Part shown: piece after piece, positions 2,742 to 60,800 of the stretch
How positions within the stretch are numbered: position 1 is the stretch's first letter
Layout of the letters: every line of letters begins with the position of its first letter
Source: Closterium sp. NIES-65
Lineage: Eukaryota > Streptophyta > Zygnematophyceae > Desmidiales > Closteriaceae
Direction of reading: 5' to 3'
DNA length: 64,000 nt
Assembly (NCBI GenBank): GCA_948144175.1
Contig: CANXME010002332.1
Span: forward strand, 216,287-280,286
The notes under the pieces: generated by a model
Told to the model about the DNA's origin: nothing
Seen by the model: only the letters and a program-made list of their open reading frames with translations
Database searches by the model: none
Program-made: the position numbers and the translations under genes

Positions 2742-5700
2742 TCATGTGTTGTCGTCTTTCTTAGTCTCAGCACCGTCCGCTGTTCCAACACCTTTGCTTG
2801 CATCCTTGCAATCATCATCCTCATCCTCATCCTCCTGCCCCGCCTCTCCCCCATCCCCATCCCCATCCTCCCCATCCTCCTCTCCCTCCTCATCCTTCTC
2901 CCCCTCGTTCTCATCCTTCTCTCCTTCATCCTCCCCCTCATCTTCCTCCCACTCATCTTCCTCATCATCATCCTCATCCTCCTCACTATTGTCTCCCTCT
3001 GCTGCTTTCTTCGCTGCTTTCTTTGCCACGCTGTTTGCCGCCCCTGCATTGCCCTTCTCCATCTGCCACACATAAAATCCAACGGCACCAGGATGGCAGG
3101 CAGTTTTGAGACTTTCCAAACCTTTGCCACGCTGTTTGCTGCTCCTGCATTGCCCTTCTCTATCTGCCACCACAACAGAACCGGAGGCAGCACAAACACA
3201 ACCAGCAGTCATGTGTTGCGCGTCCATTTCTCTGAGCACCAGCATTGAAGGACAACAGAAACGATGCTCACAAAGCTTGAGCCTTTTGATGCTCTAGACC
3301 ATGGACTAGGGGGAAGGCTCTTAGACACCTCAGGAATTGAGCACACCTGAGCACCTGAGCACCTGGAGACACCTGGACACTTGGGTAGCTTGGCACCTGG
3401 ACACTTGGCCACCTTGACACCTGGACACCCGAGCACATACCACACGCAGCAAGCTTCGCCTCTCCCTCTCCCTCAGCCTCCCGAGGGCGTGCAGCACGCA
3501 AAGCAGAGTGGCACATCTGGGCATACCTGGGCACACCCAATCACCTGGGCAGGGGGGAAAGACAAGCACGTACCGCACGCAGCAAGGGGGAAAGACAAGC
3601 ACGTACCGCACGCAGCAAGGGGGAAAGACAAGCACGTACCGCACGCAGCAAGGGGGAAAGACAAGCACGTACCGCACGCAGCAAGCTTCGCCTCTCCCTC
3701 TCCCTCAGCCTCCCGAGGGCCTGCACAGAGAGAGAGCACAGTGGCAGAGAGTGGAGAGCAGACAAGGGATGGGGCTTTAAGTCCACTCGAAAGTTCCCTC
3801 AACCTTCAAAGAGCTGCACACAGAGGCAGTGGCGGAAGCAGAGAGCCAAGAGGGGGGAGGGGAGAAGGGTTGCAAACAAAAACAGAGCACATTGTACCCA
3901 GGTATGCTCTGTATATCGCCCCCTCACCTCCTCGAGTTGCTTCATCTCATTCTCCCGCACTGCTGCTCCACTGATGCATGGGTGGGTGGGTGGGTGGGTG
4001 TGCAGAGCGGTGCAGGCATGGACAGCAGAGTAGACACAACGAGAAAAACATTATGGGAGGGAATGGGAGTGGAAACGAGAAAAGGAAGCGAGTCGAGGGA
4101 GGAAGAGGAGGGGGGTTAGAAGGGTAAGCGTCTTATGCTTGCACAATCTGTTTGGCAAAAGGCACGAAGGCAAACAGTGCGAGGGCAGAGCAGATGGGGT
4201 TGGGGGTGCAAGGATTGTGCGTCTCGAATGGTCTCACTCTTGCACGATCTCTTTGGTGGGCTGCCGGCACTTGGCACACAACCCTTTCTCCTGCGCACAT
4301 GCTGTGTGCCATGCATGGATGGATGGGGCAATGGAATGGATACATGCAGGGAAGACAGAAGAAAGGCATGAAGAGGGACTCTTCCACGATCTCTTTGGTG
4401 GGCTGCCGGCACTTGGGGCACAACCCTTTCTCCTGCGCACATGCTGTGTGCCATGCATGCGTGGACATGCGTGGAGCAACGCATACATACATACACACGC
4501 AATGCATGCATGCATGGATGGATGGATGGATGGATGGATGGATGGGGGGAAATGATGGGGGAAGACATACGTAAGCTCAGGCAAAAGTTTCTGACTCTTG
4601 GATCTTTTTTATAGCTGAGATGAGGTGAGGAAGGAAGGAATATATGGATGAAAATCCTATCATGCAATGGCATGATGGATAGTGCAAGTGAATGGCATGG
4701 CGCACACCTTGAAAGTATCAGATAGTTGGTAAGATGAAGCACCTTGGCACCTTGGCAACGTGACATGCACTTTTGCAGATGGCATGGTATGGCATGAATG
4801 GCATGCCTCACCTCTGCAGATGGTATGGTATGCCATGAGTGGCATGCTCCATCTTGAAACTATCAAATGGTTGGTAACTTGGCATGCCTTTCACGCGCAC
4901 CTCTGCAGATGGCATGACAGTGCAGGGATGGAATGCGCACCTCTGCAGATGGCGTGGTATGCGTCTTTCACATTCCTCTTGCCACATGCTTGGCTGTGAT
5001 TGGTGGACCCAGGATTGGATGAGGGAGAGAAGGGCAAGGGAGAGAACGGGAAGAAGGGTGAATGAGTGGTGGGAGGGAGATACAGGCACCTCAGGGATAG
5101 GGCAAGTGGAAAGGAAGGGGAGTGGAGGGATGACGAAGGGAAACCAGACTTAATGGATGAGCGAGAAAAAAAACAATCAAGAGAGCGCACGTCAATTTCC
5201 CAGAAGAAAACCCAGCAACCATATAGCATGTGTAGCCTGTTTGAATCGACTTAACCCAGCAACCATATAGCATGTGTAGCCTGTTTGAATCGACTTAACC
5301 CAGCAACCATATAGCATGTGTAGCCTGTTTGAATCGACTTAACCCAGCAACCATATAGCATGTGTAGCCTGTTTGAATCGACTTAACCCAGCAACCATAT
5401 AGCATGTGTAGCCTGTTTGAATCGACTTAACCCAACAACCACATCGCTGTGTTGGCCTCACAGCTCTATCAGCCGGCAGGCGTCACAACTGTAACGACTC
5501 AAGCACCATTTTCTGGTGTTGCTTCCGCGTCTCACCACTTGGCAGGCTCGGTGAGAGGCTTGTACTTGCCGTACCTGCGCCCAGGGGCGGAGAGGGGGGA
5601 CAAGGGCGATGAGAATGGGGTGTGGGTGAGGGGAGGTGTGGGAGGAAGAAAGAGAGGACTGGGGTGAGTGGTGTGTGTGGGGCGTGGAGGTGACGTTTGA

Positions 5701-7504
5701 GTCGACTCAAAAGTCACCTCTCTGTATGTGGAGCGTGGAGGGTGTAACAGAAAGCTGAGAGCTGTGGCGACAGAAAGGAGGGGCAGGGAAGAGGGGAGTT
5801 GGGGAATAGGGGGAGGGAGACGTAGGAGGAATGTGCAGGGGAAATGCTGGGGTCGGTCAGCAGGGAATGCAGCAGACGGAGACATTCATGTGCAGAGTGT
5901 GTAGCACCCGTTTCCGCTACTAAAGATTCTCCCCCCTTTCTCGTCTCTCCTCTTTCCTCTCTCCCCTCGCCCATTCAATTCCCCAGCACTCCTCATCCCC
6001 CGCCACTCCCACTCCAGCATCCCTCAAGTCAGCCCGACCAGCCCACAACTAGCCCTCCTGTTGTGGCCCCACTCAGCCCCTCACAGCACACACCACTGAC
6101 ATGAGAGGCTTCATGCGATCTGGTCGCAGCAGCGCCGCCACACGAGAAGCCCTCTCGCGCCCGGCCCATTCAACCCCACTCCCAGCCCTGCTCAGCCGCT
6201 TTCAACCACTCACTTGCGGCGCCATGCGATCTGCTCGCTGCAGCGCCGGCACACTCCTGAGATGTTGGCAAACGGCCTCGACTTGGTGCCCAGCTCCTGG
6301 TGGGAAGTTGGGATGGGAGGGGAAGGGGGGAGAAACCAAAGGGGTAGAAGGGTGTTAGGAGGGGGGAGTCAGGAAAGCGAAAGGAGGTGTTGGCGAATGG
6401 CCTCTCGACTTGGTGCCCAGCTCCCTTGTTCTTCGCTTTCCTCCTCCCCACATCCCACTGCCTCCTTGTGCCCCGTGCCCCGTGCCCCATGACCCATGAC
6501 CCATGACCCATGACCCATGACCCATGACCCATGACCCATGAACCATGACCCGTGCCCTGTGCCCTGTGCCCTGTGCCCCATGACCCATGAACCATGACCC
6601 ATGACCCATGACCCATGACCCATGACCCATGCGCCGTGCCCCGTGCCCCATGAACATATAGCTCCGAAACCCACACTGCCCCTCTCCCTCTCGTCCTCAC
6701 ACTGCTCCCTCCCTACTACCCGCTCTCTCTATCCTTCTTTCTTTCCTTCTTGAGAACTCTCCAAAGTTTTCCCCTCGTCTCCTCCCTTTCTCCCCCTGTC
6801 TCCCACCCCTTCGCCTCACTGTCTCCCACCCCTTCGCCTCACCGTCTCCCACCCCTTCGCCTCACTGTCTCCCACCCCTTCGCCTCACTGTCTCCCACCC
6901 CTTCGCCTCACTGTCTCCCACCCCTTCGCCTCACTGTCTCCCACCCCTTCGCCTCACTGTCTCCTTCTTCTACACGTTGCTCTCTGAAACCCATGCTGCC
7001 CTGCCATGCCATACAACCCAAACGCGAGGAAGGGCGCGCACTCACACCTTTCTCCCCCTCACTCCCCGCGCTTCCCTCCTTCCCCCCCCCCCCTCTCTGG
7101 GCTCACCGTTTCTTTCTTCTGCACGTTGCGTTCCGGAACCCATGCTACCCTGCCATGCCGTTGGGAGGGAGGGACGTGCACACAGCCAGAACACACACAC
7201 ACACACTCCAGGGTTTAACCGGGGTTCTGGGTTCAGCAATCCATGCTACCCTGGCACGCCACGGGAATGGCACAGGACGGGGACAGTAATCCATCAAGGG
7301 TTCAACTTGAGTTGTGGATTTGGCAGACCCACGCTGCCCTGGCAGGAACAGCATCTTGCAAAAACCACTGCCTTGGAGTGCGTAGGCGGGTTCTGCAAGG
7401 CACACGGGACGGTCGGGCAGAGGGTTTCGCACGTTTCGCAGAGGGGCTCACTTGTTCTGGTGCTTGGGCGCGCCTCTCGATGGCGCTCCCCTTCTCGTCG
7501 ACAT
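2742..7504 (-). CDS. DUF2039 / C9orf85-like small zinc-binding protein
   Basis: Exons on the minus strand: 7504-7452, 7149-7107, 6296-6214, 5574-5536, 4993-4941, 4301-4238, 3720-3673 and 3062-2742. The start (MSTRRGAPSRGAPKHQNK) matches the PKHQN N-terminus of the family. Then come VAWVPERN, GVCRRCSEQIAWRRK, YGKYKPLTEP, CQACGKRNVKDAYHAIC and ACAQEKGLCAKC: several CxxC pairs that probably bind zinc. RERERRSLLRA is followed by an acidic Glu/Asp tail. Phases agree throughout except between 4238 and 3720, where one base (mod 3) is missing. A 10-nt micro-exon at 3813-3804 (CTCTTTGAAG between gtgtgcag and gttgag) would fix it but is unproven. Function is unknown in the family. Partial exon copies fill most introns. 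Confidence 0.85.
3553..3685. repeat. 33-bp tandem repeat, 4 copies
   Basis: The unit GGGGGAAAGACAAGCACGTA plus 13 bases is repeated four times. It includes the gtacgt donor of the DUF2039 RERERR exon, so the donor has been amplified with the flanking intron. Confidence 0.9.
3775..3793. repeat. Degenerate CTTTTGAG...CTCAAAAG palindrome
   Basis: CTTTAAGTCCACTCGAAAG, a decayed match to the palindrome family, immediately downstream on the minus strand of the possible DUF2039 micro-exon. Confidence 0.5.
4511..4545. repeat. ATGG microsatellite
   Basis: Perfect ggat/atgg 4-bp repeats within a DUF2039 intron. Confidence 0.9.
5210..5429. repeat. 44-bp tandem repeat, 5 copies
   Basis: Five almost identical head-to-tail 44-bp units (start CCCAGCAACCATATAGCATG) with no spacers. 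Each unit contains GTTTGAATCGACTTAAC, which looks like a transition-decayed form of the CTTTTGAGNCGNCTCAAAAG palindrome found elsewhere in the window. Confidence 0.9.
5696..5711. repeat. Palindrome, TCGA centre
   Basis: TTTGAGTCGACTCAAA, a perfect 16-bp palindrome between two partial copies of a GTGGAGCGTGGAGG-like intron segment of the DUF2039 gene. Confidence 0.85.
6476..6652. repeat. ATGACCC 7-bp minisatellite
   Basis: Long run of atgaccc and variants (gtgcccc, gtgccct) in a DUF2039 intron. It is open in several frames, so translated frames across it are repetitive and not genes. Confidence 0.9.
6788..6966. repeat. 23-bp tandem repeat, about 8 copies
   Basis: Unit CTGTCTCCCACCCCTTCGCC plus TCA, repeated head-to-tail in the first part of DUF2039 intron 2. 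Confidence 0.9.
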
Positions 7505-11928: not shown

Positions 11929-11944
11929 ACACGAGTGTAACCAC
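11929..11944. repeat. Target-site duplication, left copy in element orientation
   Basis: ACACGAGTGTAACCAC, perfect match to 8265-8280; marks the 5' end of the minus-strand element. Confidence 0.85.
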
Positions 11945-12391: not shown

Positions 12392-15300
12392 ATGTCCGTT
12401 CGCTGTCCTAATAAGGTACATCTTTCTGACGAATCACGAGACTCCAAGCGTAGACGGATTAGTTCGTCGCGTATTCCCGATCCAGAGCCTGGGAGCGTCT
12501 CACTCGGCACGTCGCGACTGATCCAAGAGTCCGAATCGAGTCTGTTCAGATCCGGCTCCTCGATTCTCTCCCGCAAACTCGGAATCGCCTCCAAGGCGAA
12601 AGAGCAGCAGCAGTCAGATCAGCTTGGTCAGCCATCGTCTCTCCAGGGTCCGTCGGCATCGCTTCAATCGCCGTCTTTTCAGCTTCAAGCGCAGTCGCGT
12701 CCCGTTCCTGGTTCGACATCCTTCAAACGATCTTCGCGCGTCGCTGAATCTCCCAACTCAATCGCCACGCGTGCTTATCCGAACGTATCTCGTCCCGCGT
12801 CGCCTGGAATCGCTGCGGCTTCAGGAAAAAAAGAAGTCGACGAAGCTGGAAGATCACGAAAATCTCAACGATCTTGCAAATCTCGAGGACATCTAAGGAG
12901 TTCGCGGCAATCCCAAGGGATTTTACGAGGTAGAGACTTTGAAGGAGCGACAGGTGCTTACAAGCGGTTCAAGATGTCGTGGATGGGGGGATGGAAGCGG
13001 GAGACGGACAAATTCCAGCTCGAGTTAGGCTACGGGGAGAAGGAGAAGCAGAGAGAGAAAGATCTCCCCGTTGAAACCAACGGCTTAGATGGGACCACGT
13101 CGTCCGCCGCATCTGACGCTGGGGATGAATCGGACGGCGAGGGTGGGCCTGGCGCGGTGGCGAGAGCGTTACTGAGCAAGATTCGCGAGCCAATGGTGAG
13201 CGCGGAGCGACAGTGCAGGTTTCGCATTCAGGTCGATTGGTCTGCTGGCGACGACGAGGAGCAGGTGGCGTTACGGTTACAATCACTCGTGATGGTAACC
13301 CTACCTCCGCCCCATGACCACGTGGTGGTAGGCATGCACGTGGAGCCACGTGGCGAAGAGAATCAGGACAGCAAGGCAGCATCACCCGAAGCAGCACCAG
13401 ACGAAGCATCAAAAGACTCAGGAGATGAACGGCTGAGATTGCAGGATTCTGGGAAGTGGACGGTCCGGATGAACATGAGAGTGCACAAGCAGAGGGAACC
13501 GCTGCACGTGCTGCGACTGACGCGAATAGCCGCCAGCAGCAGCTCGTCCTATTCAGGCAGCGATGGGCTGTCCATGCTGGCTAAGCTGCTAGACGCCAAG
13601 GGTGTCGCCCTCCACCGGGCTGACGTCGCTGCTGCTGCTGCCAGCGCGATTCCCACAGGGACCTCAGGTGGAATTTCAGGTGCAGGAGGGGGTTCTGTTG
13701 GTTCAGGTGGCGGTTCAGGGTCGGGCGGGAGTGCAGGGAGTGGTGGGGCTCTGGTAAGGTCAGGATCGGGAGATGGAAGCGAGAAAGGAAGAATGTCAGC
13801 AGGGGGACGACAGCAGCAGCAACAGCAGTTTCAGTCAGTATCCGCTTCCCCAGAGCAGCAGCAGAAGCAGCAGCAGCAGCAGGTGCTGTCAACAGCAGAA
13901 GCGGAGAGCATGTTGGGTTACTCCGACCACTGGCGCTCGTTGAAGGCCCTCTCCCTCTCCTCCTGCTCCCTCTCTGTAAGCACATCAACCTTTCTCAGAC
14001 CTCCTGTGCCCCGTTTATAAGCATATCAATCCCTCCCTAACCTTTTGCCTTCTCTGTAAGTGCGTGTTGCCTTTTTTAGGCCCATGCTGAGGTACTGGAT
14101 GCGGAAAGCAACCTTCTTAGTGCTCGTCTTTGTCCCCTCTCTCTTCTTCTTTCTTCCTGACCCAATGTCCTTCCCATGAATCTGCCCCTGCTGGAGGTAC
14201 CGGAGGTGGAGAGCAAGTCCCTAGCGCCACTGTTTTTTCCTCAGTAGCCCTTCTTCTTCCTACCCCCACCCCAGGTCTTGCCCAATTTCACCATGAACCT
14301 GCCCCTGCTGGAGGTACTGGAGGTGGAAAACAACCTTCTGAGTGCTCCTCTTTGTCCCACCCTCTCTACTTCTTTCTCCTGAACCAACCCCACTCCAGGT
14401 CCTCCCCAACTTCACCATGAACCTGCCCCTACTGGAGGTACTGGAGGTGGAGAACAACCGCCTGAGCGCGCTGCCGGGGGAGATCGGGCAGCTGCAGCAG
14501 CTGAGGGTGCTGCGCGCTGATAACAACCAGCTCACCACCGTGCCCAGTGAGTCACGCACACTTGGCAGCTTCTGTGTGCCCAGTGCGTATCTCGTAATGC
14601 ACCATAAAGAGGGGTTAGCTGCAGCAGCTGAGGGTGCTGCGCGCTGACAACAACCAGCTCACCACCGTGCCCAGTGAGTCACGCGCAGCAGAATCTTTAG
14701 GGCTTGTAAGGCATTTCAGAATCAATTTTCTAGGCCCGTGTGTTTAGTGAGTGATTCTTAGTGTTACTAAAAGAGGGGATTAGCTGGTGCTGCGCGGATG
14801 CGCTGATAACAACCTGCTCACCTGCCCAGTGAGTCACGCCCACAGTATAGTTTTGATTGAGGTCTGTGCTGTGTGTCTAGTGAGTCTCTCTTCCCATGGC
14901 ACACAGCACAGACCACCTTAAAGAGAAGGCAGCTGCAGCAGTTGAGGGTGCTGGATGTCATCTCTTCCATATAGCAAGTTCAGTTTGAGACGGCCAAGGA
15001 GGCTACGAAGAAGAGAATTTCCGACGTGCAAACTCAGCTGAGGGAAAAGGAGATAGAGCTGATGCGGGAGAAGGAGATTTTTGTGTCAAATGAGAATGAA
15101 TCTGGCCAAGCTGAGAGGCATGGTCAATGAATTCTCCTTTGACATGAAAATGCTATTTCTCCCGCATGAGCTCCATCTCTCTTTTCTCTCAACTGAGTCA
15201 CACACAACAGAGTTGAGGTGTCTCAGGAATTGAGTATTGAGCCCTCTGTGCAGAGGAAGTTGTCTAATAAAAGTGTGCACCATCCCTCCCTTGCCATGCC

Positions 15301-18300
15301 AAGTGCGCGTGTGGACTTATCTGGACCGTGCTCCTCGGTGCCTAGTCCTGGGCCCTGTGCCTGGTCCTGGAGACCTTGCATGCATTGACTAAAGCATGTT
15401 ACGTGCTCCAATCGTTAATTTCACACACACCCTCTTGTTCCTCTCCCCTGCCCTCTTTCTCCTGTCCTAAACCATCCCTCCCCGTGGCAGTCACACTGCG
15501 GGAGTGCACCAACCTGAGGGAGCTGTCCCTCGAGAACAACCGCCTTGTGCGTCCCCTCCTCGACTTCAGGTGCGTCTGCTACGTGCCTTTCACTCCACTT
15601 CTTCCCGCCTTCCACTCTTCCGCTACCCCTTTGCCACTCTTCTGCCACTCGCCTTCTGTCGCCACTGCTCCTTGCGCTGTTGTTCCATCCCCTAATCAAC
15701 ACAACCCCTTCCACTTGGCAACTCAATCCACCCCCTTGCAGGTGCCTGGCGGACCTGAGGGTGCTGCGGCTGTTCAACAACCTGCTCGAGTTCATCCCGG
15801 AGATCCTGCCTGGCTCGTGGAGCGATCCCTACACCATCCCCAATCCACAAGTCCCAACCATTTCCTTCCCCACCGCCTACCCCTCGCCTGCCCCCCTGTG
15901 CGCTGCAGGTGTTTGGCGGACCTGAAGGTGCTGAGGCTGTTCAACAACCCGCTCGAGTTCTTCCCAGAGATCCTTTCTTGCTTGCGCCACCATCCCTACA
16001 TCAACCACATTTCACAACACCGCCCTCCAAGTTCCAATCACACTCCCCCCCCCCCTTCTACCCTCCATCTACCCCCTGTCCAGGTGCCTGGCAGACCTGA
16101 GGGTGCTGCGGCTGTTCAACAACCCGCTCGAGTTCTTCCCAGAGATCCTGCCCTGCCGCCACCTGCGCATGTTATCCCTTGCCAACGTGCGCATTGTCAG
16201 CGACCCAGACCTCAAGATCGTTGACGTTAGCATCGTGGTGAGTCCATCATTGCACAGACTGTCGCGTTTAACAGCGTTTGAGGAACACGTTTGCCCTCAT
16301 ACTCGGCCACTCGCCCATTCCTCGTTCTCTTCTCTCCCGCCCGTCCCGCCCCCCTCCCCTCTCATGCATCTTCAGCAACTGGAGGCGCAGCAAGGCTCCT
16401 ACTTCTCTGCGTCCAAGCACTGCCTGAGCGACTTCTTCGCCCTCATCTTCCGCTACTCGTCCGTGCACCACCCGCTGCTGGCGTCCGCCCTGGCACGCAT
16501 CTGTGAGGACCGCGAGAACCGCGCGGCCATTGGCAAGGATGAGAGCGCGATCAGGCAGATCGTGAGCATGCTGCTTGCTGACTCCAAGCACGTGGTGAGT
16601 TAGAAGGGGCCGCATGGGAGGAGGGCATGGGCTGTGGCGTGTGGAGTTGGGTGGGGCTGGAGAGCAGATCAGCAAGGATGCGAGCGCTATCCGGCAGTTC
16701 GTGGGCATGGTGCTGGCAGACTCCAAGAATGTGGTGAGTGGGTGGGTTTGCTTGCGTGGGGCATGGGCTATGGGGCGTGAGTTGTGGTGCATGGTTGATG
16801 CGTGGGTGGTGGTGCATGATCATGCCACATGCCCTGGCGTCACATAGTAGTGGTGTCATCTGCTCATTGCTGTGTCTTGAGGCGGCTCAAATCCTCTCCA
16901 AACACCCCTTCTCCACCCACACCAGGTGGAGCAGGCGTGCCATGCCCTCTCCTCCCTGGCAATGGACGATGCACTGGTGACCCATCTGGTGAAATCGGAC
17001 GTGCTGGCGGCCATCTGCTCACTGCTGCTCTCCCAGCACTCCCGTCAATCCCCCAACCCCCCATTCCCTCTTCCCCTTCCCCCACCCTCATCAGGTGGAG
17101 CAGGCGTGCCATGCCCTCTCCTCCCTGGCAATGGACGACGCACTGGTCACCCACCTGGTGAAGTCAGACGTGCTGGCGGCCATCTGCTCGCTGCTGCTCT
17201 TTGAGACACCTCAAGGCAAACCCTAAACCCCCCGTCTTCCTCCGCCCCTTCGTCCACCCCCCTCCCCCCCGACACCAGGTGGAGCAGGCGTGCCATGCGC
17301 TCTCGTCCCTGGCAATGGACGATGCACTGGTGACCCATCTCGTGAAGTCGGACGTGCTAGCAGCCATCTGCTCGCTGCTGCTCTCCCAGCAGCCGGAGAT
17401 CCTCGTGTCAGTGCTGCGCGTCATTGCCAACCTCGCCCTCGCCTCCGACTCCGTCGCTGCACGCATTCTGAACGTCGATTCTGCGGCTATTCTCACCAGT
17501 CTGTGTCATCATACACACATGATGGTACGCGTCTGTGTCATCATACACACATGATGGTACGCGTCTGGGGGGTAGGGGGTGGTACTGGATGGGTGGTTCG
17601 GGTGGGGTATGCCATGTGGCGTGCAGGATGGTTGGTAGGGGTAGGGCATAGTGTGTGGTGGTGTACTCCCAGCAGCCGGAGATCCTCGTGTCCGTGCTGC
17701 GTGTCATTGCCAACCTCGCCCTCGCCTCTGACTCCGTTGCCGCGCGCATTTTGAACGTCGACTCGGCGGCCATTCTCACCAGTCTGTGACTCTGTGCCAC
17801 CACACGCACATGATGGTATGTGTGTGCGGGTGCGGAAGGGGGAGAGGGGGGGGGGGAGGGGTGCTATATGGCGTATGTGCAGCATGCAGGGTGGTATGTG
17901 GATGAGATGTATGGCTCGTAGCGTGCAGGATGGTATGGGTCGTGTGTGGGGTGTGGCATGCTTAGAGCCATCTGCTTGCTGCGGCTATGACTGTTGCATC
18001 TCTCCTTTCCCCCACTCAAAGTTCCACCTTGTGAAGCGCCCTGCTCTGCTGCTCTCTCCCCCTCTCTTCCTCCATCCATACCTCTCTCCTCGAAACCTTC
18101 TGCACCCTTCTCACCGCCACCCTACCTGCACCCTTTCCGTTCTAACCTCTTCCTTATTGGTCGTCCAACAACCCCACGTTTTTTTCCCTCTCTCACCCCC
18201 TTCCCTCCATCCTCCTCCTTCTCCTAGGTGCAAACTCAAGCCCTCATGGCCGTGGGTAACTTGTCATTCTGCCCGGACAACCGCCGCCTGCTGGTGGCCC

Positions 18301-21300: not shown

Positions 21301-24300
21301 ATGTGCACGGATGACGATGGGGACCTGCTCATCGACTCCGCAGTCAAGGGCGGGCCCAAGGTCTTCGTGGTGTCCACCCTCGTTAGTGTCACACCCGCCA
21401 CACCCTTCGTCTTCCGAAACTACCAGGTGAGGCTCTTACCAATTGCTAATTGCTGAGTGTGGGGTGCACTCTGCCAATAGCCTTCCTGCCCCCTAACCCT
21501 CCATCCAACGGTTTCCATGCCATCCACCCGGGGCTATCCGCGTGCAAGTTGCAGCCCTTTCTGGTCTGCGCCTTCTTTCCCCGGCATCACTCCCCTAACC
21601 GTTGCTGCTACTTCCTTCTTCCCTCATCCCTCATCCCTCTTCCCTCTTCCCCCATCCCCAACAGTACCCTCCTGGGACCAGGGAGACCCCCCACCCCCCA
21701 GCCGACGGGTCCCCCATGCCCATGCCGCCCCCCCGCATGCGCACATCGGGGCTATCCGCGCTGCTAGGCACGTGCAAGATGCAGCTCTGGCAGGCCATCC
21801 GAGCCTCCTCCGCAGCTCCGTACTACTTCGACGATTTCGCTGTTGGCCCCCACCGCTGGCAAGACGGGGCTATTTTCGCAAATAACCCTACAATTGTCGC
21901 GGTGAGAGAGGCCCGGCTGCTCTGGCCGGACCTGCCGCTGGACTGCGTGGTGAGCCTCGGGTGCGGCTCGGCGCCGCCGAAGCTGCGCGGGAGGCCCGGG
22001 TGGAGGGTGGCGGATACGGGGCAGGTGCTGGCCGAGGCTGCCACGTCGGTGGAGCAGGCGGATCTGGCGTTTGAGTCGGTGATTCCCATGCTGCCCGATG
22101 TGAAATACTACCGGTTCAACCCAGGTCAGTGGTGAAGCGAGAGGGAATGATTGCAGGTGAGAAATCTGAACGAGATCACCTGCAAGCTGGTATTTGAGAC
22201 GTCTCAAAACACGTTTTTTGAGAGTTATAACGAAGAGTTTCGAGATTTGTTAAGGGAGCAATACAAAGAATGGAGATAATATCCTTGACATCATCAAGGG
22301 ACATAGAATTTTCCACGGTAAGAACGGCAACACTACATTCACTGGCATGACATTAGTCACTTCGGCATCTATAGCGGATGCAGTCGATGTTCTTGCTTAT
22401 GCAGGAAAAAGAAGGTGAGGATAATCCATCTAACAAATCTCGAAATCGGATAATCCCTCACCTTCTTTTTCCTGCATAAGCAAGAACATTGACTGCATCC
22501 GCCATAGATGTCACAGTGACTAATGTCATGCCAGTGACTGTAGTGTTACCGCTCTTACCGTAGAATATTCTGTGTCCCTTGCTGCTGTCAAGAATATTCT
22601 CTCCATCCCTTGTGATTGCTGCCGTACTGCTAGAAAATCCGTTTAACAATTTTTAAACTCTTCCTTATAAATCCAAAGAAAAGTGATTTGAACTTTCTAC
22701 CTTCCTGAGAGTCACCCTTCCAAACCCTTCCTACCCCTTCTAAGTGCTCCCAAACCTCCCTTTTAGCCCTCTAGTACACTAGTGAACAATCGGTGCAGCA
22801 TGGACTTGACCTGGGCAAGACCGATCCAGCAGAGTGGGAGAAGCTGGAGCTGTTGCCCTTCAAACCTTTCAAACCCCTTTCAACCGCTCCCGAACCCCTC
22901 TTCTAACCGCTCCCAACCTTTTGATACACGCAGTGGACGAGCTGTGTGGCATGGACTTGGATGAAACGGACCCAGCGGAGTGGGGGAAACTGGAAACAGC
23001 CACGGATGAGTACCTCACAGCAGTCAACTGCGACATGGCAGAGCTCTGCAAGTACCTGCGCCTCTGCTCCCTCCACCTCCCCTTCCCGTTCCCCTTTCCC
23101 CCTTTCCCTTTCCTCCGTCCCCATTCCCCCTCCCCGCTTCCCGCTTCCCCTTTCCCCTTTCCCCCTCCTCCCCAAGCAGTGGACGAGCGGTGTGGCATGG
23201 ATCAGGATAAAACAGACCCAGCGGAGTGGGAAAAACTTGAAACCGCAACTGATGAGTATTTGACAGCAGTCAACCGCAACATGGCCGAGCTCTGCAAGTA
23301 CCTGCGCCTCTGCTCCCTCCACTTCCCCTCCACATTGAATACTTCCCACCACCCTTCCCTCCTCCGTCTTCCCCCTTCCCCTTTCCTGTTTCTCGCTATC
23401 CCTTTTTCCCTTGCCCTTTCCCCCTCCTCCCCAAGCAGTGGACGAGCGGTGTGGCATGGATCTGGACGAAACAGACCCAGCGGAGTGGGAAAAACTGGAG
23501 ACAGCCACTGACGAGTACCTCACAGCAGTCAACCGCGACATGGCAGAGCTCTGCAAGTACCTGCGCCTCTGCGTGGCTCAGGAGGAGGCAGACAAGGCCG
23601 CCGCCGCAGCACTGTTAGGCGGAGCAGCAGCAGCAGCAGCGGCAGCGGCAGGGGGGTATAGGAGTCGGCCGGGGAGTCGGCCGGGAAGCATGCCCGGCAC
23701 CCCGAGAGCCGCTGGCTACTCTAGCCCTGCAGCAGCACCTGTTTACCCTCCCATTGTGCTCCCAGCATCGCCTAGGTCGCCCAAGACGTCTGCCCCCGCG
23801 TCGCCCCTGGCCAAGGTGATTGGGCCGCAGGGGGATCAGAGGAGGGGAGCCAGTGGCAGCTCGCTGCACGCGATCAATCCATACCGTCGGCACGTGCTGC
23901 TCGTGGACTCCATCCGGCCGTCCGTTGCCCGCCGGCCCTGGCAGCACTCGGCTCGTCTCTGCTGCTCTGCCATCGGCGGCGGCGGTGGCTATATCAACAA
24001 CAGCAGCATGGTTTCTTCTCATGAAGCAGCAGCAGCGAGGCTCGCAGGGATCATCAGCAGTATCAGCACGGACGGTGGCAGCACTGGCAGTCTGCTGTCC
24101 CACCTGCGCCGCCCCCCTAAGGTAGACGAGCATATCTGTGAGCCCTGCGACCCTCCCTCTGGCAGCACTGCTGCTGCTGCTGCGTCCACTGGGCTGTATT
24201 TCTCCACCTCTCTCCAGTCCCCGTTCAGCTCCCGACCCTCCAGCGTGCCTGGGAGTCCCCGAATCACAGGGTCAGCTTCGGCCATGGCTGCTGCTGCAGC

Positions 24301-44735: not shown

Positions 44736-47700
44736 ATGGCATTGCGTGACTCACAACAGCCGGCGCTTTCAGATGTAGCTTGCGTCGCCCTTATATCTAC
44801 GCACGGGGATATAACAGATTGCAGGTGTGCTGCTGCACGTGCTCCAGTATTTCGCAACGATGCATCAACATTACTCTTCACGGTTTTACCGTTGAGAGAT
44901 TCTTGACTGTTTTTTTTCCTGCAGTTCGGCGTTTTGTAAAGTGCTTGGTTATGACCAGTGCGATATCATCCATCGTCCGTTCGAAGAGATCATAGATTGC
45001 AACCACAGGAGCCGTTTTCAGGCACGTACATCCATCTCCGAGTGTCTGTGCACTGTGTCCCCTAGAGAGTACCATATAGGCGCCGTCCCTTGGATTGTAT
45101 CAGTAAAATCTCAAATCATGATCTCTTGATCCAAGCTTGTGTTGCCGTTTCATTTCCCACAGAGTGCACTGAAGAAGGCTCTCCAAAAAGCAGCGTTCGA
45201 GCTTCGCCTGAGATGTCACAATGGCGGCACTGCATGGTTCGATGTCTCCATGAAACCGGTCCTAGCAAATTCCGCGGATGGGCCAGTCTCGTCATATTGT
45301 TGCGTGTTCCATGACATCTCCACGCGGAAAACTGCTGAAGTACGTAGCGACGAAACCACTGCCTGCACATTGTGTGTACTCTGTATTTTTTTTCACTGTA
45401 CCTCTCTCTCGGTTCTTCTTTTTTCCTGTTTCCTTTTTGCCTTTTATGAAGCATAAGGAATACCTCGTGAGGCAAGCTGCTCTGATCTGTTTCCTTTCTG
45501 ACCTTACCACTTCTAGTAGTCTGTCCAACTTAACTGTAACTGTTACAGGAGCAACTATTGGGAGGGCTCAGAAGGTGCTTCAAGCTCTGCGGAGCATCAT
45601 TTGGAGAGTTTGATCCTCCGTCATTGTTTGAAAATCCAGATACCTTTCTGCACCGGCTGAAACTGGTTGAAGAGACTCTTAAGACAGGGCAGGAGAATGA
45701 GAAGTTCAGAAGAATATTTGAAATGTCCATGGTAAGGCTCACGTTAATGTGTGCAATGGAATAGATATCAAGCCTGTGAGAATTGGGGTTACACTGCATG
45801 TTGGATCCTAGAACTGGCACTTTCCACCACATTTGTGATGCTTTTTATCTACTTTAATCCGTTGCATGGAGCGTCCTCCGTGCCTCAATCCCTCAACCTG
45901 CTTGCCTCAGGACCCGGTTTTCATCGTTTCTGACGACATGGTAATTCAGGAATGCAACGAAGCAGCCGTCAAGATCCTGAAATTCAAGGATAAATCCGAG
46001 ATTGCAGGCAAGGTAGACGTTGCCAGCCTGACGCCCGAGTTCCAGCCAGACGGGACAAGATCTGCCGACAAGTTGGCTCAGTTCAGCCGCCCGGTGCTCT
46101 CAGGAGGAGGCTCTGCCATTGGCGAGTGGTGGCACTATGCGTCGGATAAAACCCTCATTCCGGTCCTAGTAAAAGTTCAGGTGCGCTAGGTTCGTGAGTT
46201 CAGGGTGTGGCATGTGTGATGTGGTCTGGGGCATGGTCCCTGAAGTGTGCTTGTTGCGCGGGATCATGGGCACTGGATTACGTGGGTCTCTGTCTTCTCA
46301 TTTCAATCACCTACACTACACTACACCCCTCCCAACCCCTCTCTCCCTGCACGCACACCTCTCCCACCCCACCCTGCCCCTCCCTTCTCACCCCCCATCC
46401 CTCCCTCCCCCACACGCTTCCCCCCTCCCCCACACGCTAACCTGGCAGTGCGTGCAAGCCAACGGGCGCAGCCACTTTGTGACCGTGTGGCACGACCTCA
46501 CAGACATAAAGCAGCACGAGCAGGCGCTGCTCAAGGCGCGGGAGAACGCGGAGCGCGCCAACGCGTCCAAGAGCGAGTTCCTCGCCAAAATCAGCCACGA
46601 GATCCGCACCCCCATGAATGGCGTCATCGGTGTAGCAGACCTGCTGTTGCAAACCCCGCTGAGCAACGAGCAACGGTCGCTCCTCGAGGTGATTCACTGG
46701 GGGCTTGCTGTCAGGGAACTCACTGTCTGGGGATTATATCCGGTGTGCTGGATATTGGCAAGATGCTTTTGTGTCGACTCAAAAGTGTATGAGGCGTGCT
46801 GGATAGAAGCAAGATGGAGGCTCAGTCGGTGCTTGTTTGTTGTCGTCAATGCAGGTAATCCGCACGTCGGGGGACTCGCTGCTGAGGATCATATCGGACG
46901 TGCTGGATATAAGCAAGATGGAGGCGCACTCGCTGCAGCTGGAGGCCGTTCCGTTCAACCTGCGGGCTGTGGTGGCTGAAGCGGAATCGACCGTGCATGT
47001 GCTCGTGCTGCAAAAGGGCATCCAGGTGTCTGCTCTGCTCTCTGTCTCGCTCGCAGCCCTGGATCTCCCTCCCCCCTTTCTGTGCTTCCTGTTTCTTGAA
47101 GGATTCTCCCCATCCCCTGCTGCATCTCATTCCTCTGCTGCCACAATTGCTTCTCCTGTTCCGCCCTCACATGATTCTCACACTTGTGCCAGTCTGTCTC
47201 CTCCTTTTTTTTGACATGCACAGGTCTCTTCCCTTCTCCCTTTCTTACCCTTCACACGTCTCCGCCCACCCCTCCCTCTTACTACGTACATGTCTCCTCC
47301 TATCTTTTCCTCATGCACGGACATGCCATGCTGCCCGCCCTGCATTCAGCTCCTCGTTGACGTGGATCCAGCCGTGCCCTCGCTTGTGGTTGGGGACCCC
47401 AGCAGGCTGCGCCAGGTGCTGCTGAATCTCCTCTCCAACGCCATCAAGTTCACTTCCAGGTAAGTGCTTGACCTGTCGAGTCGAGGCATGCGTTTCCTCT
47501 CGGGCACGTCAGGCTGGGCAGTCAGAGTGCAGGACAGAAGAGATGTGCATGTCGTGAATGGAAACATAAGGATTCTTCATTCTCAGGTGTTTTTTGTTGA
47601 ATTCAACTCCACGTGCTTGCTGATACATATTAACAACCCGTGTTCCCTTTTCCTTGCAACAGGGGCCATGTGAAAGTGCGTGTGAGCCTGTCAATAGCAG

Positions 47701-50625
47701 CTGAAATTCTACCAGCGTCAGCACAGCCAGATGCAGTGAAAGCTGACCCACAAGCCTTGTCAGCAGAACAAGGAGCAGCCTCAGCAGAGCCCGAAACTGC
47801 GTCAGCGAATCCTCGTGCATCGTCACTAGAACCCAAAGCATCTCCGACAAAACCCAGCCGAAAGAGAGTGTTATGGGGAACGGGTGAAGGGATGGCAGGA
47901 TTAGAGGATGATGCGAAGAAGAGGGCGAGATCTGAGGAGGGGGGGAAGGGGGGCGACAGGGCAGGATACGAATTTGGAAAGAAGAGTGATTCCTTGCAGA
48001 AGCAGGCGTTGGAAAGACTAGGTGCTGCAAAGATGGCAGGAATGGGGACTTCTAGAGCTGGAAACGGGTTCCAAGAACATGGCAGTGTGCCAGAGGAGAG
48101 AGAGAGAAACGGCGAGGCACGAGTACCAAGTGAAGGAGGTTGCTGCGAGCATGTGTCTGCTGGGCCGTCAGCTGATGCAGATGTTCCACAGGAGGAGCAA
48201 TCAGGCCCGTCAGCAGCAACAGATGTTTCACAGGAGCAGCGAGGTCGGCCAACAGCAGCAGAGGTTTCACGGGAGGAGCAATCAAGTCCCTCTATGGCAG
48301 CAGCAGGCATGGCTTTTGAGGCGTCTCAAGAGTTGAGTGCGCTGAGTGCTGGCCTGGCACCCGCCGCGGGTGTGCCACGGGAGCAATCAGATCCATCAGA
48401 TCCATCACCAGCAGCGGCAGTTGCTGTTTCACCGCAAGAGCAATCACACCCACCTGTATTAGCAGATGCTAACCTTGCAGCTGAAGGCTCTGCAGGGAAG
48501 TCACAACATGAAGACATAGCCAGAGCAACCAGCTCGGAGAAGCAAGCTGCATCTGCATGCCTTCCTGAGAATGGCAATTTGATGATCAGGTCCCTTTCCC
48601 TGGAGAAGGCGCGGGCAATTACAGTGTGCTTTGAAGTGACAGACACTGGGATCGGCATTCCACAGCAGATGCTGCCAAAGTTGTTCCAGCCTTTCACACA
48701 GGTGCGGCCACGCAGCTGATGGCCCTCACTTCGATCACCCCCTAATCTTATTCCTTGTTTTCCCTGCCTGTATATCTCCTCCCGCGCTTTCTTCACTCGT
48801 GTAAGCACACCGAACGAGTTCCGTCCTTGTTTTCTCTTTTGCCAGTGACCCTTTCATCTCGCTGAGGTTGTCTGGTTGGCCCCATTCCTCTTCCGTTTTC
48901 TGTTCCTCCCTGCTCCTCTCCTCTCCCTCCATCCCTTTCCTCTTCCCCTGCAGGCGGACAAGTCCACCGCGAGGAGGGACGGAGGCACGGGGCTGGGTAT
49001 CGCCATCTGCAGGTCTCTTGTGTGGCGCTCATGGGAGGCACCATTTCCGCTTCCTTGCACTCTCTCCCGCTGCCTCACCCCCTAAACCTCAAACCCTGCA
49101 GGCGGACAAGTCCACCTCAAGGAGGTACGGGGGCACGGGGCTGGGCTTGGCCATCTGCAGGTCGCTAGTGACGCTCATGGGGGGCACCATCTCCGCCTCC
49201 TCCCGCCCAGGCCATGGCTCCTGCTTCTCCTTCGCCCTGCCCTTCACTCTCCCCACTGGGAGCTGCTTCGATTCCCCTGAGGTCACGGATACTTGTGCTG
49301 TTGCTAAGTGTGGTGGAGTCACAGGGAGTGTCGCAGCTGCAGGTGGGACAGGTGGGGCAGTTAGGGCAGTTGGGGCCGGTGGGGCAGGTGGGGCAGGTGG
49401 GACTGCAGGAGCGACTGTGGGAGAAGGCCAAGTACAGATGCCTGTTCCATGTGACTCCCCTGTACCTGACAACCATCTGTCAAGCCGGCTACATCCAGCC
49501 ACTTCCGTACCATTCCTCTCTCCGTGCACTCAGCTCCCAGCTGCCACTGCCAGTAGCGGCAGCGGTGCATACACACTTTCACCTGCCAATTCACCTGAGC
49601 TCTCCGCTCTGCCCTCATCCACAGCTCCACCTGCCATTCCACCTACTATGGCGGCATTGGTTCCTCACGGTCTTGCACCCAGAATCTCTAATCCCCCATC
49701 ACCATTGACAGCACCATTGGCAGCACTGTTGGCACGATCAGCAGCACTGTTGGCAGCGCCAATGGCAGCACCATCAGCAGCACCATCAGCAGCATCATTG
49801 GCAGCATTGCCTCATTCGGCCTCTTGGGAGTCCTTTTCTCTAGTGGCAGCGGCGGCAGCGGTGCGCTCCTCTTCTCCATCGGTAGAGCTGCAATCGTTTG
49901 CCGGGCTGAGGTGTCTGGTGGTGGAGGACAATCCGGTGAACCAAATGGTGGTCGTGAGGCTGCTGGGCAGCCTGCAGGTCACCTGTGACGTGGCAGAGGA
50001 TGGGGTCAAGGCCGTGGCAGCATGCCAAGCCAAGGAGTATGACGTCATCTTCATGGTGAGATGCGGTGGGCAATTATGGTAACTACGATATAGAGTTTCA
50101 GCTACATGCAACTGTTGCCTTTTTGTGGTTGTTACGATACAAACTGCGGTGGTCCCTCGTCTGCGGTGGTCCCTTTTCTGTGGTTCAGGGTCTTCCGCCT
50201 TCGATGTCCTTTGGGATCATGCGGTTGGTTCAGTAACCAGTTGTTTCACTCCTCCCTCACTCGTCTCTTGCTCTTGCCTGGAATTTCTTTTGCAGGATGT
50301 GCACATGCCCGAAATGGATGGGTTTGAGGCGACTAGAAGGATTCGCGAGATTTCTGATACAAACAGCGGCGATTCTTCAGCTTCTGGAAGGCAGTCAGGG
50401 CATGGTGCAATTGTTAGCAGCAACGACATGTACTTCTTCAATCCTTCAAGGACGCTAAGCAGACCGTTAATCATTGCACTAACGGCAAGTGCGCTCAATC
50501 ATGAACGCGACAAGTGCGCACGTGTAGGAATGGACGCTTTTCTCACGAAGCCAGTCCGTCTTAAAGATTTAGAAGCTGTGCTTAGACCCTGCTTTTCCCA
50601 TGGTTTTAAAAGGACGTGTGCATGA
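44736..50625 (+). CDS. PAS-domain hybrid histidine kinase 2 (tandem paralogue)
   Basis: Exons: 44736-44824, 44925-45021, 45163-45339, 45549-45731, 45911-46180, 46449-46688, 46855-47025, 47350-47459, 47663-48701, 49102-50055, 50296-50625, all phases consistent. The start could be 44664 in the same frame. Motifs match kinase 1: PAS ([34 protein letters not shown]), H-box [12 protein letters not shown]-box [12 protein letters not shown]1 TDTGIGI, G2 [10 protein letters not shown], receiver [29 protein letters not shown]. Exons of 183 and 110 nt are the same size in both genes. It differs by about 270 low-complexity residues between N and G1 boxes and a long Gly/Ala/Ser linker before the receiver. 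The intron after 45021 uses a GC donor (CAG|gcacgt). Confidence 0.88.
46689..46830 (+). repeat. Two partial copies of kinase-2 exon 7
   Basis: 46689-46765 is a diverged copy of 46855-46921 (GTGCTGGATATTGGCAAGAT). 46786-46830 copies the GTGCTGGATATAAGCAAGAT part again. The palindrome at 46766 separates them. Confidence 0.8.
46766..46785. repeat. Palindrome, TCGA centre
   Basis: CTTTTGTGTCGACTCAAAAG, one mismatch from a perfect 20-bp palindrome, exactly between two partial copies of the kinase exon encoding [10 protein letters not shown]. Confidence 0.85.
48313..48332. repeat. Palindrome, GCGT centre, in coding sequence
   Basis: CTTTTGAGGCGTCTCAAGAG is translated in frame (AFEASQE) inside the low-complexity insertion of the second histidine kinase. 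Confidence 0.75.
48954..49040 (+). repeat. Upstream copy of kinase-2 exon 10 (G2 box)
   Basis: Encodes [23 protein letters not shown] after an acceptor, then loses frame. The intact exon starts at 49102. Confidence 0.85.
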
Positions 50626-51188: not shown

Positions 51189-51190
51189 CC

Positions 51191-51202: not shown

Positions 51203-51391
51203 TACTTTCCTAGGTTACCCTCCACTTTCCGGGGTAGTTTAGTACGGGGGTGCGATAGGTTTGGTGGGCTGCAAAGCGGTCGGCTGAGAGATAGATACGA
51301 TTATCTCGCTCCGACTAATAGCGTTTGCGCCTTCATCAAAACCAGAAAAATCGTTGTTAACCCCCTGCCCGTTAGACGAAGCCTGCGACAC

Positions 51392-55500: not shown

Positions 55501-56047
55501 CCAGGACGCGCGTGCCAAGGCAGCTGACTTTATCCGAAAAGCGAATTCGACCGCCAGCCGCTACGCTGACCAACATCGACGGAATTTACCCTTCCGCGAG
55601 GGGCAGATGGTCCTCCTGGACACCAAAAACCTCAGACTGCCCCAGCCCGCGAAACTGCGTCCTCGATACGTGAGACCTTTCCGCATCGTTCGAATGCTGA
55701 CACCGGTCACTGCGAAGCTTCTCCTCCCGGACGACTGGCATATCTACGACGCTTTCCACGTCAGTTTGCTTCGCCACTACGTGGCACCCCAGTCCCCCGA
55801 CGTCGCTCGACCCCACCAGGCGCCCAGTGTCCGACCGGTAGCAGATCCCACGCTCCAGCCCTGGAAGATATTGAATCATCGCATTCGTGCGACCCCAGCC
55901 GGCCGCCACGTCGATTTTCTCTTACGTTGGGTAGATCGCACAAGTGAAGACGACACGTGGGTCCCAGCTGACTCACTACAAGGGCACTCGGTACTCCGGC
56001 AGTATCTTTCTCGCCGACACGTGCCTGATATTGACCAGCTTTCTTGA
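52517..56047 (+). CDS. pol: Pol: protease-RT-RNase H-integrase-chromodomain
   Basis: Protease (LFVDGGASHSLVN, with GG in place of the usual SG/TG after Asp; LLGRDWL) is in frame 1. From 53166 on the coding continues in frame 2. RT has FTPKKDGGLRMCIDYRALN and YLDDILVYS (catalytic DD). RNase H has VVTDASDFAVGAVL. Integrase has the HHCC region (SGHFGVDKTL...CPTCQAMK) and DDE residues around MDFVTGL, ISDRDPKFTSKFW and QTDGQTERTNQ. The C-terminus (FLLRWVDRTSEDDTWVPADSL) resembles a chromodomain that steers integration to marked chromatin. Ends at 56047. The frame change lies in the A7 run 53159-53165: a one-base insertion or a +1 programmed shift. Confidence 0.88.
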
Positions 56048-57822: not shown

Positions 57823-60800
57823 ATGGAAGACTCGATCATCTTGGACCACGTCCTTTTGCAACTCAACACGACCAAGAGCAGGTCAGTCAATTCCGATCCT
57901 TAATCCTGCTTTCAGTAGCATGAGCCAAAGAATGGCTCGTCATGCAATAGGATCATCCTGCTACTAGAACACATATGCGTCGGTTTTCCTCTTCTCGATT
58001 ATAATAATTGTCCCTGTCATTCATCCTGCTGTCTCCGCATGCAATCCTGTCCCGATGCAGATGCGACGTGGTCGTATCTTGCAACGGAGAAGCCACTATC
58101 GTGTCCACTGGACTAATCCGTCCCTTCGCGTCGCACATCAAGGCCGTGGACGACCAATTCAAGAGCGGCGCGCACCTGATTAAGCTCGACCCGCGCGAAT
58201 GCCGCGAGTTTCTAGATCGGCAGCGGCTAAAACATCCGCTAGCAGCAGCAGCAGCGGAGGAGGACCAAGCAGAGGAGGACACGCTTCTCGGCTGGTTCAA
58301 CCTGAAAACCGTTGAGAGGTCAGCTTCTCTTCCCCGCTGCCTCTCCTCCTCCCCCACCCTTCCCCCCTGTTCCCCTCTTTCCCTCCCACCCTTGGCATGC
58401 TTACATTCTCGAGACTAAGATACCCTTTGGTTGCATTGGAGGTTTTAGATGAGAAGGATACTTTCTTGCGTTGCTACGACCGTAACGTTTGTGAAGTCAC
58501 CCGGGCTGCCCCGGAACAGCTAGCTATACTCATCTGTCACCGTGTCTGTGTCTGCACCTTCCACAGGATAATAACATTCGTGAAGTCACCCGGGCTGCTG
58601 GAGCACGCGGTGACGATCGAGGCGGAGTTGCAGAGCCTAGACGACACCATCCATACCCCCGCCGCTGCCTCTGAGCCGTTTCAGGTACGCGGGGAACAAG
58701 TCAAACTCCAACTCGTGAGCCTCTCCCGTTCTTCCGCCCAGAACCGCGTCCTTGCCACTTGGAAACTGTTCGACACGTCGCGTGTTTGCTCGTGACGACA
58801 CGTCGCGTGTTTGCTCGTGACGACACGTCGCGTGTTTACTCGTGACGACACGTCGCGTGTTTGCTCATGAGGACACGTCGCGCGTGACTTATTTATCGCT
58901 TGCCCTGTCGCACGTGACTGACTGATTGCTTGCCCCGTGGCGCGCGGTTGCCTGACTACCCTCCGTGCCACGGCAGGCGGAGCAGCATCTGGACGACAGC
59001 ATCGGCAGAATGGAGGAGGGCCCGAGTTTTTGAGACGTCTCAAAACCCAACTTTTATCACCCTCTGTGCCACGGCAGGCGGAGCCGCTACTGGACGGCAG
59101 CGACGGCAGAGTGGAGGAGGCCCTGAGAGGGGCGACGCCGCTGAGAGACCGCCTCTCTGGCCGACGAGCGTCGTCTCGCTCGCCGTCTCCCGCCCGAAGC
59201 CTTGTCAGTGCTCACATCCCCGCTCGTGCTCACGTCCCCCTTGTGCTCAAATCCGCTCGTGCTCAAATCCGCTCGTGCTCACATCCGCTCGTGCTCACAT
59301 CCGCTCGTGCTCACATCCGTTCGTGCTCACATCCGCTCGTCCTCACATCCGCTCGTGCTCACATCCGCTCGTCCTCACATCCGCTCGTGCTCACATCCCG
59401 CTCGTGCTCACATCCCGCTCGTGCTCACATCCCGCTCGTGCTCACGTCCCCGCTCGTGTTGACGGTCGTTCCCGTCCTCTGTTCCCATTCTATGTGTGCG
59501 TGATCCCGTGTGTGCGTGATCCCGTGTGTGCGTGATCCCGTGTGTGCGTGATCCCGTGTGTGCGTGATCCCGTGTGTGCGTGATCCCGTGTGTGCGTGAT
59601 CCCGTGTGTGCGTGATCCCGTGTGTGCGTGATCCCGTGTGTGCGTGATCCCGTGTGTGCGTGATCCGTGTGTGCGTGATCCCGTGTGTGCGTGATCCCGT
59701 GTGTGCGTGACTTCGTGTGTGCGTGATCCCGTGTGTGCGTGATCCCGTGTGTGCGTGATCCCGTGTGTGCGTGATCCCGTGTGTGCGTGATCCCGTGTGT
59801 GCGTGACTTCGTGTGTGCGTGATCCCGTGTGTGCGTGATCCCGTGCATGCGTGACTTCGTGTGTGCGTGAGTACTGCAGAGCGGATTCAAGACGGATGCG
59901 TCCAGCGATAGCGGCGAGCGCGAGAGGTGAGATTGGGGTTGACACGGCGTGATGCGTGGCCCTCAGGCTTTAGAGCCGTCACGTGACGCTACGCTTCCCT
60001 GGTTCCTTCTTCTAAAGACCAAGTGTTGAAACTACTCATGGGTGTCCCTCGTAATACTTTTCGAGACGTCTCAAGAAGCGGCCCTTCTTGTGTGTTCCCC
60101 CACCTACCTCTGTTTCCGCGCAGTCACCTGCGCCGCGCCAAGGACGTGCGCACGGCCATGCTCAAGCGCGAGCAAGGAGTGGCAATCGCGCGCGCAGCGG
60201 CGGCGGGATTCTCCCCCGACGTGGTGCCGCTGCTGCTCTGTTTCGCGGATTGCTTCGGAGCCGTCCGATTGAAGCACGCGTGCGTGAAGTTCTCCTCCCT
60301 CGTCCGCCGCCAAGACTCTGCCTACGCGGAAAGCCTCACGCGCGCGCAACTCGCGCAGGCCGCCGCGCAGCCCGGCGGCGGCGCAAGCGCAGGCGCGGGC
60401 AGGGGCGCGGGCGCTGCACCGCCGGTGCAGCCACTGCCGCCGCAGCAGCAGGCGTTTGGACTGGCGGGGGGACGGGGCGGCGGAATCTGGTTACCCGACG
60501 GCCACGTCACCGGTAACACGGTTACAGGGACTCCCGGGGGCTATTACCCCTTAGTTCCGCTGTTTAACGGGGCTATGCCCAGCGGTATCCCCGGCGCTAT
60601 GGGCCCAGGGATATCTCCCTCTACCGGGACCCCTGTAACTTACGGCCTCGTCGGTCCCAATGGGGAGATTTACGCTGTTGCCGGGGGCAGCGGCGGCATG
60701 GCCGGAATGGGTGGCGGTATAGGCGGCACAATGGGTGGCGCAACTCTCGGCGGGACGGGGGCGGGTGGTTGGGGAAGTGCCCCTGGTTTTGCAGGGTATA

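Follow-up and report, generated by a model that had tools for sequence, protein, structure and literature searches.

Why does one short palindrome recur in a 64-kb stretch of the nuclear genome of the green alga Closterium sp. NIES-65 (the window: the whole stretch that was analysed), in several cases between two copies of the same host segment, and what put it there? The palindrome, instances of which had been listed in a first-pass annotation of the window, is treated here as an insert with constant arms; we put the probability at about one half that each copy marks a staggered break whose repair added a constant, templated tag to both 3' ends. The whole analysis was based on one nuclear genome and on DNA sequence only. 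Genome-wide counts in the NIES-65 assembly (874 Mb, 2,400 contigs) are of exact matches only, and decayed copies come on top of them.

The core with any four-base centre (TTTTGAGNNNNCTCAAAA) had 30,327 exact matches in the genome, against 4 for the reversed control and 1.4 expected from composition. Cores with an NCGN centre numbered 24,964 (reversed-pattern control 0, composition expectation 0.1), so that both counts lay far above their controls. The dominant centres were TCGA (13,080) and ACGT (5,047), and GCGC was frequent among the matches listed. The first-pass annotation had derived the centres from NCGN by CpG decay, with instances of different ages. TTGA, TCAA and ACAT centres are present, as CpG decay predicts, and different ages are supported alongside; AATT is a further type that does not fit CpG decay, and NCGN is thus not the sole form. 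Copies are unevenly spread over the genome: exact TTTGAG-4-CTCAAA was absent from 15 random stretches (L016-L030, 138,420 bases), in which decayed copies (at least 12/16 positions) numbered 7 against a control mean of 4.8, no clear excess. Near copies of the core were seen in random stretches L030 and L018; the latter has, at 1532-1569, a core with an AATT centre (TTTTGAGAATTCTCTAAA), flanked by inverted outer arms of 10 bp (TTGGTGTTAC/GTAACACCAA).

For the duplication test, a direct repeat was required whose left copy ended at most 30 bases before the palindrome and whose right copy started at most 30 bases after it, with an alignment score of 12 or, more strictly, 16. Outside the window, the test was applied to 29 separate places from 27 stretches (contigs C6, C9, C10 and C13), drawn from the first-listed contigs and hence not a random sample of the genome. 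The arrangement X-palindrome-X, where X is a duplicated host segment, was found at 27/29 of these places at score 12 and at 26/29 at score 16, with X mostly 16-100 bp long. Tandem repeats and satellites are abundant in the genome and raise the controls well above zero: the share of control positions that passed at score 12 was 29.9% within the same loci (n=184), 13.7% in the window (n=300) and 38.2% in random 10-kb stretches (n=225). Compared with the highest control, 27/29 corresponds to p 8e-10. L042 failed, and so did the AATC-centred copy that comes first in L047. Among the 18 loci where the repeat is ungapped, X ranged from 16 to 92 bp, and inexact repeats reached 173 bp.

Sites in the window were scored as matches out of 16 positions, with 104 permuted-arm patterns as controls. 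Seventeen sites scored at least 12/16 (control mean 2.0, maximum 10), and TTGAG was the commonest (6 matches) of the 1,024 possible five-base arms around a four-base centre; with the genome counts, these results uphold the view that a repeated palindrome with such conserved arms is not due to chance. Every site listed in the first-pass annotation was present, either exactly where it had been placed or at most 2 bp away. The score was 16 at 59028, 15 at 5695, 22192, 46767 and 48314, 14 at 16875 and 60059, 13 at 26112, and 12 at 17199 and at the decayed site 3775; the site at 15213 differs by one mismatch from TTGAGNNNNCTCAA. The features are as follows, with duplication-test scores unless given out of 16.

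3775..3792, strongly decayed candidate CTTTAAGTCCACTCGAAA, 12/16; duplication score 12.5
5209..5452, array of 44-bp tandem units in which TTTGAATCGACTTAA appears five times (5240 to 5416)
5687..5720, 34-bp palindrome of the TCGA family with one mismatched pair, GAGGTGAC-GTTTGAGTCGACTCAAAA-GTCACCTC; the longest that the window contains
15213..15226, TTGAGGTGTCTCAG, a decayed palindrome; duplication test negative
16877..16890, palindrome TTGAGGCGGCTCAA; ends a partial exon copy and adjoins the tandem exon copies 16905-17391
17200..17214, palindrome TTTGAGACACCTCAA; joins exon copies 17074-17207 and 17258-17391 (score 90.5)
22192..22209, palindrome ATTTGAGACGTCTCAAAA; duplication test negative
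26112..26129, TTTCAAGCCACCTCAAAA, a decayed palindrome flanked by copies 26010-26113 and 26132-26235 (score 80.5)
46766..46785, palindrome CTTTTGTGTCGACTCAAAAG; within a predicted 166-bp intron of a hybrid histidine kinase gene (score 14)
48314..48331, palindrome TTTTGAGGCGTCTCAAGA; lies in frame in the histidine kinase model, duplication test negative
58958..59127, X 58958-59026, perfect palindrome TTTTGAGACGTCTCAAAA at 59028-59045, 13 bases of extra filler, X 59059-59127 (score 44)
60059..60076, palindrome TTTCGAGACGTCTCAAGA; duplication test negative

The palindrome at 5687..5720 has a weak flanking direct repeat of ~19 bp (5672-5690 and 5722-5740, score 14). Judging by their letters, the TTTGAATCGACTTAA units of the 5209..5452 array may be decayed TCGA palindromes. 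In a stretch that by eye resembles a kinesin exon, 20760-20817 form an imperfect inverted repeat of 58 bp with TTGAG and CTCAG close to the middle; it is possibly a related fold-back product.

At score 12, 6/11 window sites passed the duplication test, against 13.7% of 300 random positions (p ~0.002), and at score 16 the figures were 3/11 and 10.7%. The passes at 17201, 26114 and 59029 were strong (scores 44 to 90.5) and those at 3776, 5696 and 46769 weak (12.5 to 14); 15213, 16877, 22193, 48316 and 60061 failed under the 30-base limit on both sides. An association with duplication junctions was therefore found outside the window and within it. Six sites had been described as lying between partial copies of the same segment: 5696, 17200, 26111, 46766 and 59028 do so (5696 and 46766 weakly), and 16877 does not, its repeat partner being 121 bases to the right. 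The two-sided test replaced two earlier ones: a single-best-alignment test, with a median score of 40.5 (58 instances) against 9.0 (389 control positions) and only 1/58 above the control 95th percentile because controls fall in satellites, and a second test, passed by 21/36 genome instances and 2/11 window sites against controls of 33/326, 66/1,000 and 253/900. When repeat-gap-repeat structures were scanned in the window and random loci, the best 40 of 541 cases included 59028 as the only perfect palindrome of at least 18 bp outside satellite-like repeats, and L019 with an imperfect 22-bp palindrome. Partial exons are tandemly repeated with intron pieces at 16905-17391 and at 19036-19533; the palindrome was not found in the latter array, and so marks only part of the tandem exon duplications.

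Sites without the insert were recovered at two loci. At L015 (C6:109299) two 60-bp copies of X, 100% identical, flank the insert GACTTTTGAGTCGACTCAAAAGTC, and three nearby units (73.7-81% identity) hold a single X that continues into the downstream flank with no palindrome; in these alignments the upstream side aligns over 3 to 12 bases only. At L061 the unit CGTTACAGG... occurs five times, two units at its two ends being without insert and three lying around two inserts. As a single X goes with the absence of the palindrome in these paralogous copies, palindrome and duplication arose together there. The same insert-free copies rule out a pre-existing fragile palindrome, and with it the earlier suggestion of a break site, if this is taken as one already in place. 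A hairpin-capped repair product had also been suggested; read as host-derived P-nucleotides, it is ruled out by the constant arms, present in tens of thousands of copies. What survives is the footprint of an unknown mobile element or of a repair process, narrowed to a constant tag inserted with a long target duplication. A virus origin was rejected: the 11 viral contigs with the motif show unrelated flanks and no duplication (by eye), as by chance. Identical or near-identical copies of some regions lie on other contigs (26000-26300 on C2261, 100%; L015 and L045 each on C347 and C1658; L051 on C1759), and point to recent duplication on a large scale or to redundancy between contigs.

The insert is a palindrome of ~18-36 bp with an 18-bp core, TTTTGAG-(four self-complementary bases)-CTCAAAA. 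In the TCGA family it can be longer, up to (C)GAGGTGAC...GTCACCTC(G), and its two sides stop at different points: beyond the core, L051 has TGAC on the left and L044 has AGGTGAC, each with one base on the right. The full 30-mer GGTGAC..GTCACC was found at 613 places, against 13,080 TCGA cores. The outer part of the TCGA-family palindrome is accounted for by a 17-nt unit, GGTGACTTTTGAGTCGA. This unit also occurs head to tail: L063 consists of a partial unit, five 17-nt units and then an inverted arm, with TTGA in place of TCGA in 2/6. Further 17-nt ladders were found on C1051, C1643, C1616 and C1798, and L057 has two units on one side. Other ladders are spaced by 12 nt (TTTTGAGGCGCA on C84 and C1617, TTTTGAGGCGTA on C105, TTTTGAGACGTG on C532) or by 10 nt (TTTTGAGACG on C244 and C626). 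A search for half units head to tail gave 77 and 59 places on the two strands; half units without a following C gave 96 and 125, some of which are decayed palindromes, and half units followed by T or A at three places (L064, L066 and L067) are decayed or altered palindromes. Head-to-tail ladders point to a tail that is not itself palindromic. TCGA is followed by GGTGAC in the 17-nt ladder and by the inverted arm in the palindrome, as if it were a boundary at which copying restarts or tails pair.

Junctions were analysed in 18 loci (36 junctions), with L049 (1/19) excluded for want of a clean repeat. At 25/36 junctions the filler was in-register unit sequence only (one mismatch allowed) or there was none. 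Microhomology of at least one matching base between the host 3' end and the tail was present at 17/25 in-register junctions against 44% expected (p 0.013); the chance level is 44% and not 25% because the boundary is ambiguous in both directions. This result is support for templated addition, not proof of it. Inverted arms beyond the core were seen at L047, L018, L062 and L052, and an inverted-arm score of at least 7 was reached by 7/47 copies (three of them TCGA-family extensions) against 2.1% of 756 mixed pairs; such arms would be expected if the tail snaps back on itself.

A repeatable tail, a stop at a self-complementary tetranucleotide and a head-to-head joint between copies of X are most simply explained by templated addition. 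The break would leave staggered ends with X between them, and the same short sequence (in the main family GGTGACTTTTGAGTCGA) would be copied from a template onto both 3' ends, starting at variable template positions and ending, in the main family, at TCGA. The two tails could then anneal through their self-complementary last four bases, and gap filling would finish the palindrome and duplicate X; repeated use of the template before annealing would yield head-to-tail units. The likeliest agent would be a reverse transcriptase, telomerase-like or other, copying an RNA template that might contain UCGACUCAAAAGUCACC, ACGUCUCAAAA or GCGCCUCAAAA.

Several points weigh against templated tagging. Neither the template RNA nor the reverse transcriptase or the nuclease was found, and at least four centres (TCGA, ACGT, GCGC and AATT) would need several templates or a variable one. 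The ladders are few and could reflect later amplification by slippage; L065 is a copy of the L063 locus and not an independent ladder, and the 12- and 10-nt ladders lack a clean end at the four-base centre. The microhomology excess is modest (15/22, p 0.018, without three junctions of two array loci). Filler at 11/36 junctions was not scored in register and in some cases fits no unit (L058, L060), the in-register filler of L057 is long, and 59046-59058 in the window is extra filler. An abutting duplication is missing at 5/11 window copies and 2/29 others, and where empty sites of L045 and L051 were sought, occupied copies only were found.

A minimal mobile DNA element is unlikely, though it has to be taken seriously: a free double-stranded or hairpin palindrome of ~30-36 bp would be captured at staggered cuts or integrate into them and leave long target duplications of variable length. 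A palindromic insert in high copy number, target duplications and empty sites would all follow, and some fuller forms are indeed symmetric at their ends (L056, L064). The ends are not fixed, however, the duplication ranges from 16 to 92 bp in clean cases, and we know of no integrase with such variable ends and duplication lengths. Head-to-tail half units would be unexpected from the joining of whole palindromes, and no coding element was found, though no systematic search was made.

Junction microhomology, nested or repeated copies (L050, L057), extra filler beside some copies and inverted arms would also suit a self-propagating templated insertion, which we consider quite improbable. In this process a polymerase-theta-like polymerase would prime broken ends on palindrome copies in the genome, copy the core and switch back, with no dedicated enzyme or RNA. 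Donor flanks would then be expected often, whereas 25/36 junctions contain in-register unit only or nothing, and the 17-nt ladders would be left unexplained.

Extremely 5'-truncated retroinsertions, like those of long or short interspersed nuclear elements (LINEs or SINEs), with both nicks primed from one RNA 3' end (the twin-priming form), are very unlikely. They would account for target duplications and independent truncation, TTTT could copy an A-rich RNA end, and LINE-like and Ty3-type reverse transcriptases are encoded in the window; yet, in the 46 distinct copies that were compared, no longer insert with the same end was noticed. Target duplications of LINEs are usually shorter than those described here, and tandem units are atypical of LINE and SINE insertions.

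A sequencing, library or assembly artefact has a negligible chance: the motif is linker-like and artificial palindromes arise in whole-genome amplification (PMC6218980), but copies with decayed centres between diverged duplicates largely refute it, one copy lies in an open reading frame, copies are common to duplicated contigs and the flanking repeats are direct, not inverted.

Among known systems, the nearest mechanism to templated tagging is the telomerase-dependent formation of interstitial telomeric sequences in mammals, which, in the accessible part of PMC2246262, resembles it in templated units at break ends, empty sites and some head-to-tail units, and perhaps in 3'-end microhomology. 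Target duplication, by contrast, is the rule in Closterium (27/29) and the exception at the mammalian loci (6/130 in rodents and 4/25 in primates, in the same part of PMC2246262). The Closterium units are GGTGACTTTTGAGTCGA or TTTTGAGGCGCA-like and not TTTAGGG, and the usual product is a head-to-head palindrome. TTTAGGG 21-mers were found at 2,459 forward and 964 reverse places, with one array starting at base 9 of contig C17, and we infer that TTTAGGG is the Closterium telomere repeat. As an insert the telomere repeat was ruled out, since TTTAGGG arrays are present and the inserted units differ from them.

Miniature inverted-repeat transposable elements and cut-and-paste DNA transposons are likewise short, with inverted repeats, many copies and target duplication; the Closterium insert differs from them in its variable, asymmetric ends, in having no interior that we could see, and in a duplication that is long and of no fixed length (16 to 92 bp). 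Introner elements, too, are short and numerous insertions that may contribute to the origin of introns, whereas the 18-36 bp palindrome has no splice sites or intron structure and one copy lies in an open reading frame. We know of no nuclear element built in this way. In the mitochondria of fungi and algae, palindromic and GC-cluster elements are short palindromes in high copy number (cf. PMC4524435); the Closterium palindromes are nuclear, their target duplications are long and their half units also occur head to tail. Intron gain by tandem duplication, as far as the accessible part of PMC4974935 describes it, resembles the window in the tandem duplication of exon pieces beside splice sites, ~100/166 bases of one predicted intron here aligning to the following exon; a constant palindrome at the joint, as in Closterium, goes without mention in that part.

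In the literature search, judged by titles and the starts of abstracts and with subscription papers and preprints mostly outside its reach, related topics only and no report of such a tag were found; the exact ACGT-centred 18-mer is in none of the papers searched for it, and 'palindrom' is absent from the accessible part of the Closterium genome-size paper (PMC10407611). If templated tagging is correct, DNA breaks are repaired or invaded here in a manner not described before, with an unmistakable signature, and a second kind of break-end tagging beside that by telomerase. Tens of thousands of events could then be counted, dated and mapped in one genome, and tandem exon duplications, and perhaps introns, in Closterium would have a concrete and testable source. 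The Closterium group is close to land plants.

The link to introns comes from the histidine kinase gene model (GT-AG exons, open frame), in which the 166-bp predicted intron spans 46689-46854. About 56 bases to the left of its palindrome and 45 to the right (~100/166) align to the following exon, and proteins P0010 and P0011 (both NIES-65; the gene of the window and its copy) differ at this intron. The process may thus make or lengthen introns: where AGGT or existing splice sites lie within X, splicing could remove the duplicate. In the same gene model the palindrome at 48314 is read in frame as FEASQ. By eye, this segment was not seen in the NIES-53 and NIES-68 relatives, and a motif search of 129 proteins found it in P0010 and P0011 only, besides a receiver-domain FEATQ in P0012, P0067 and P0068. 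The two histidine kinase copies at 36000-50700 are apparently in tandem, four stretches of the second (44300-50700) aligning upstream with 76-94% identity.

A broader proposal is offered tentatively, as possible rather than probable. Closterium nuclei might have an activity dedicated to tagging DNA ends, a telomerase-like but non-telomeric reverse transcriptase that uses short RNA templates of at least the TCGA, ACGT, GCGC and AATT types; it would add a self-annealing tag at each 3' end of a staggered break, and the ends would be joined with duplication of 16 to >90 bp of host DNA. With tens of thousands of events, it would be a main source of tandem exon duplication and of new intron sequence.

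Other features of the window include a U6atac minor-spliceosomal RNA gene at 7915-8033 (-) (Rfam RF00619, 86.2 bits), which suggests that the minor spliceosome is present, and a LINE-like long reading frame with a reverse transcriptase domain at 8396-12277 (-). The gag and pol frames of a Ty3-type long terminal repeat retrotransposon lie at 51101-56047 (+), with a weak chromodomain match at the end of pol; for the gag, 9/9 matches were Closterium proteins.

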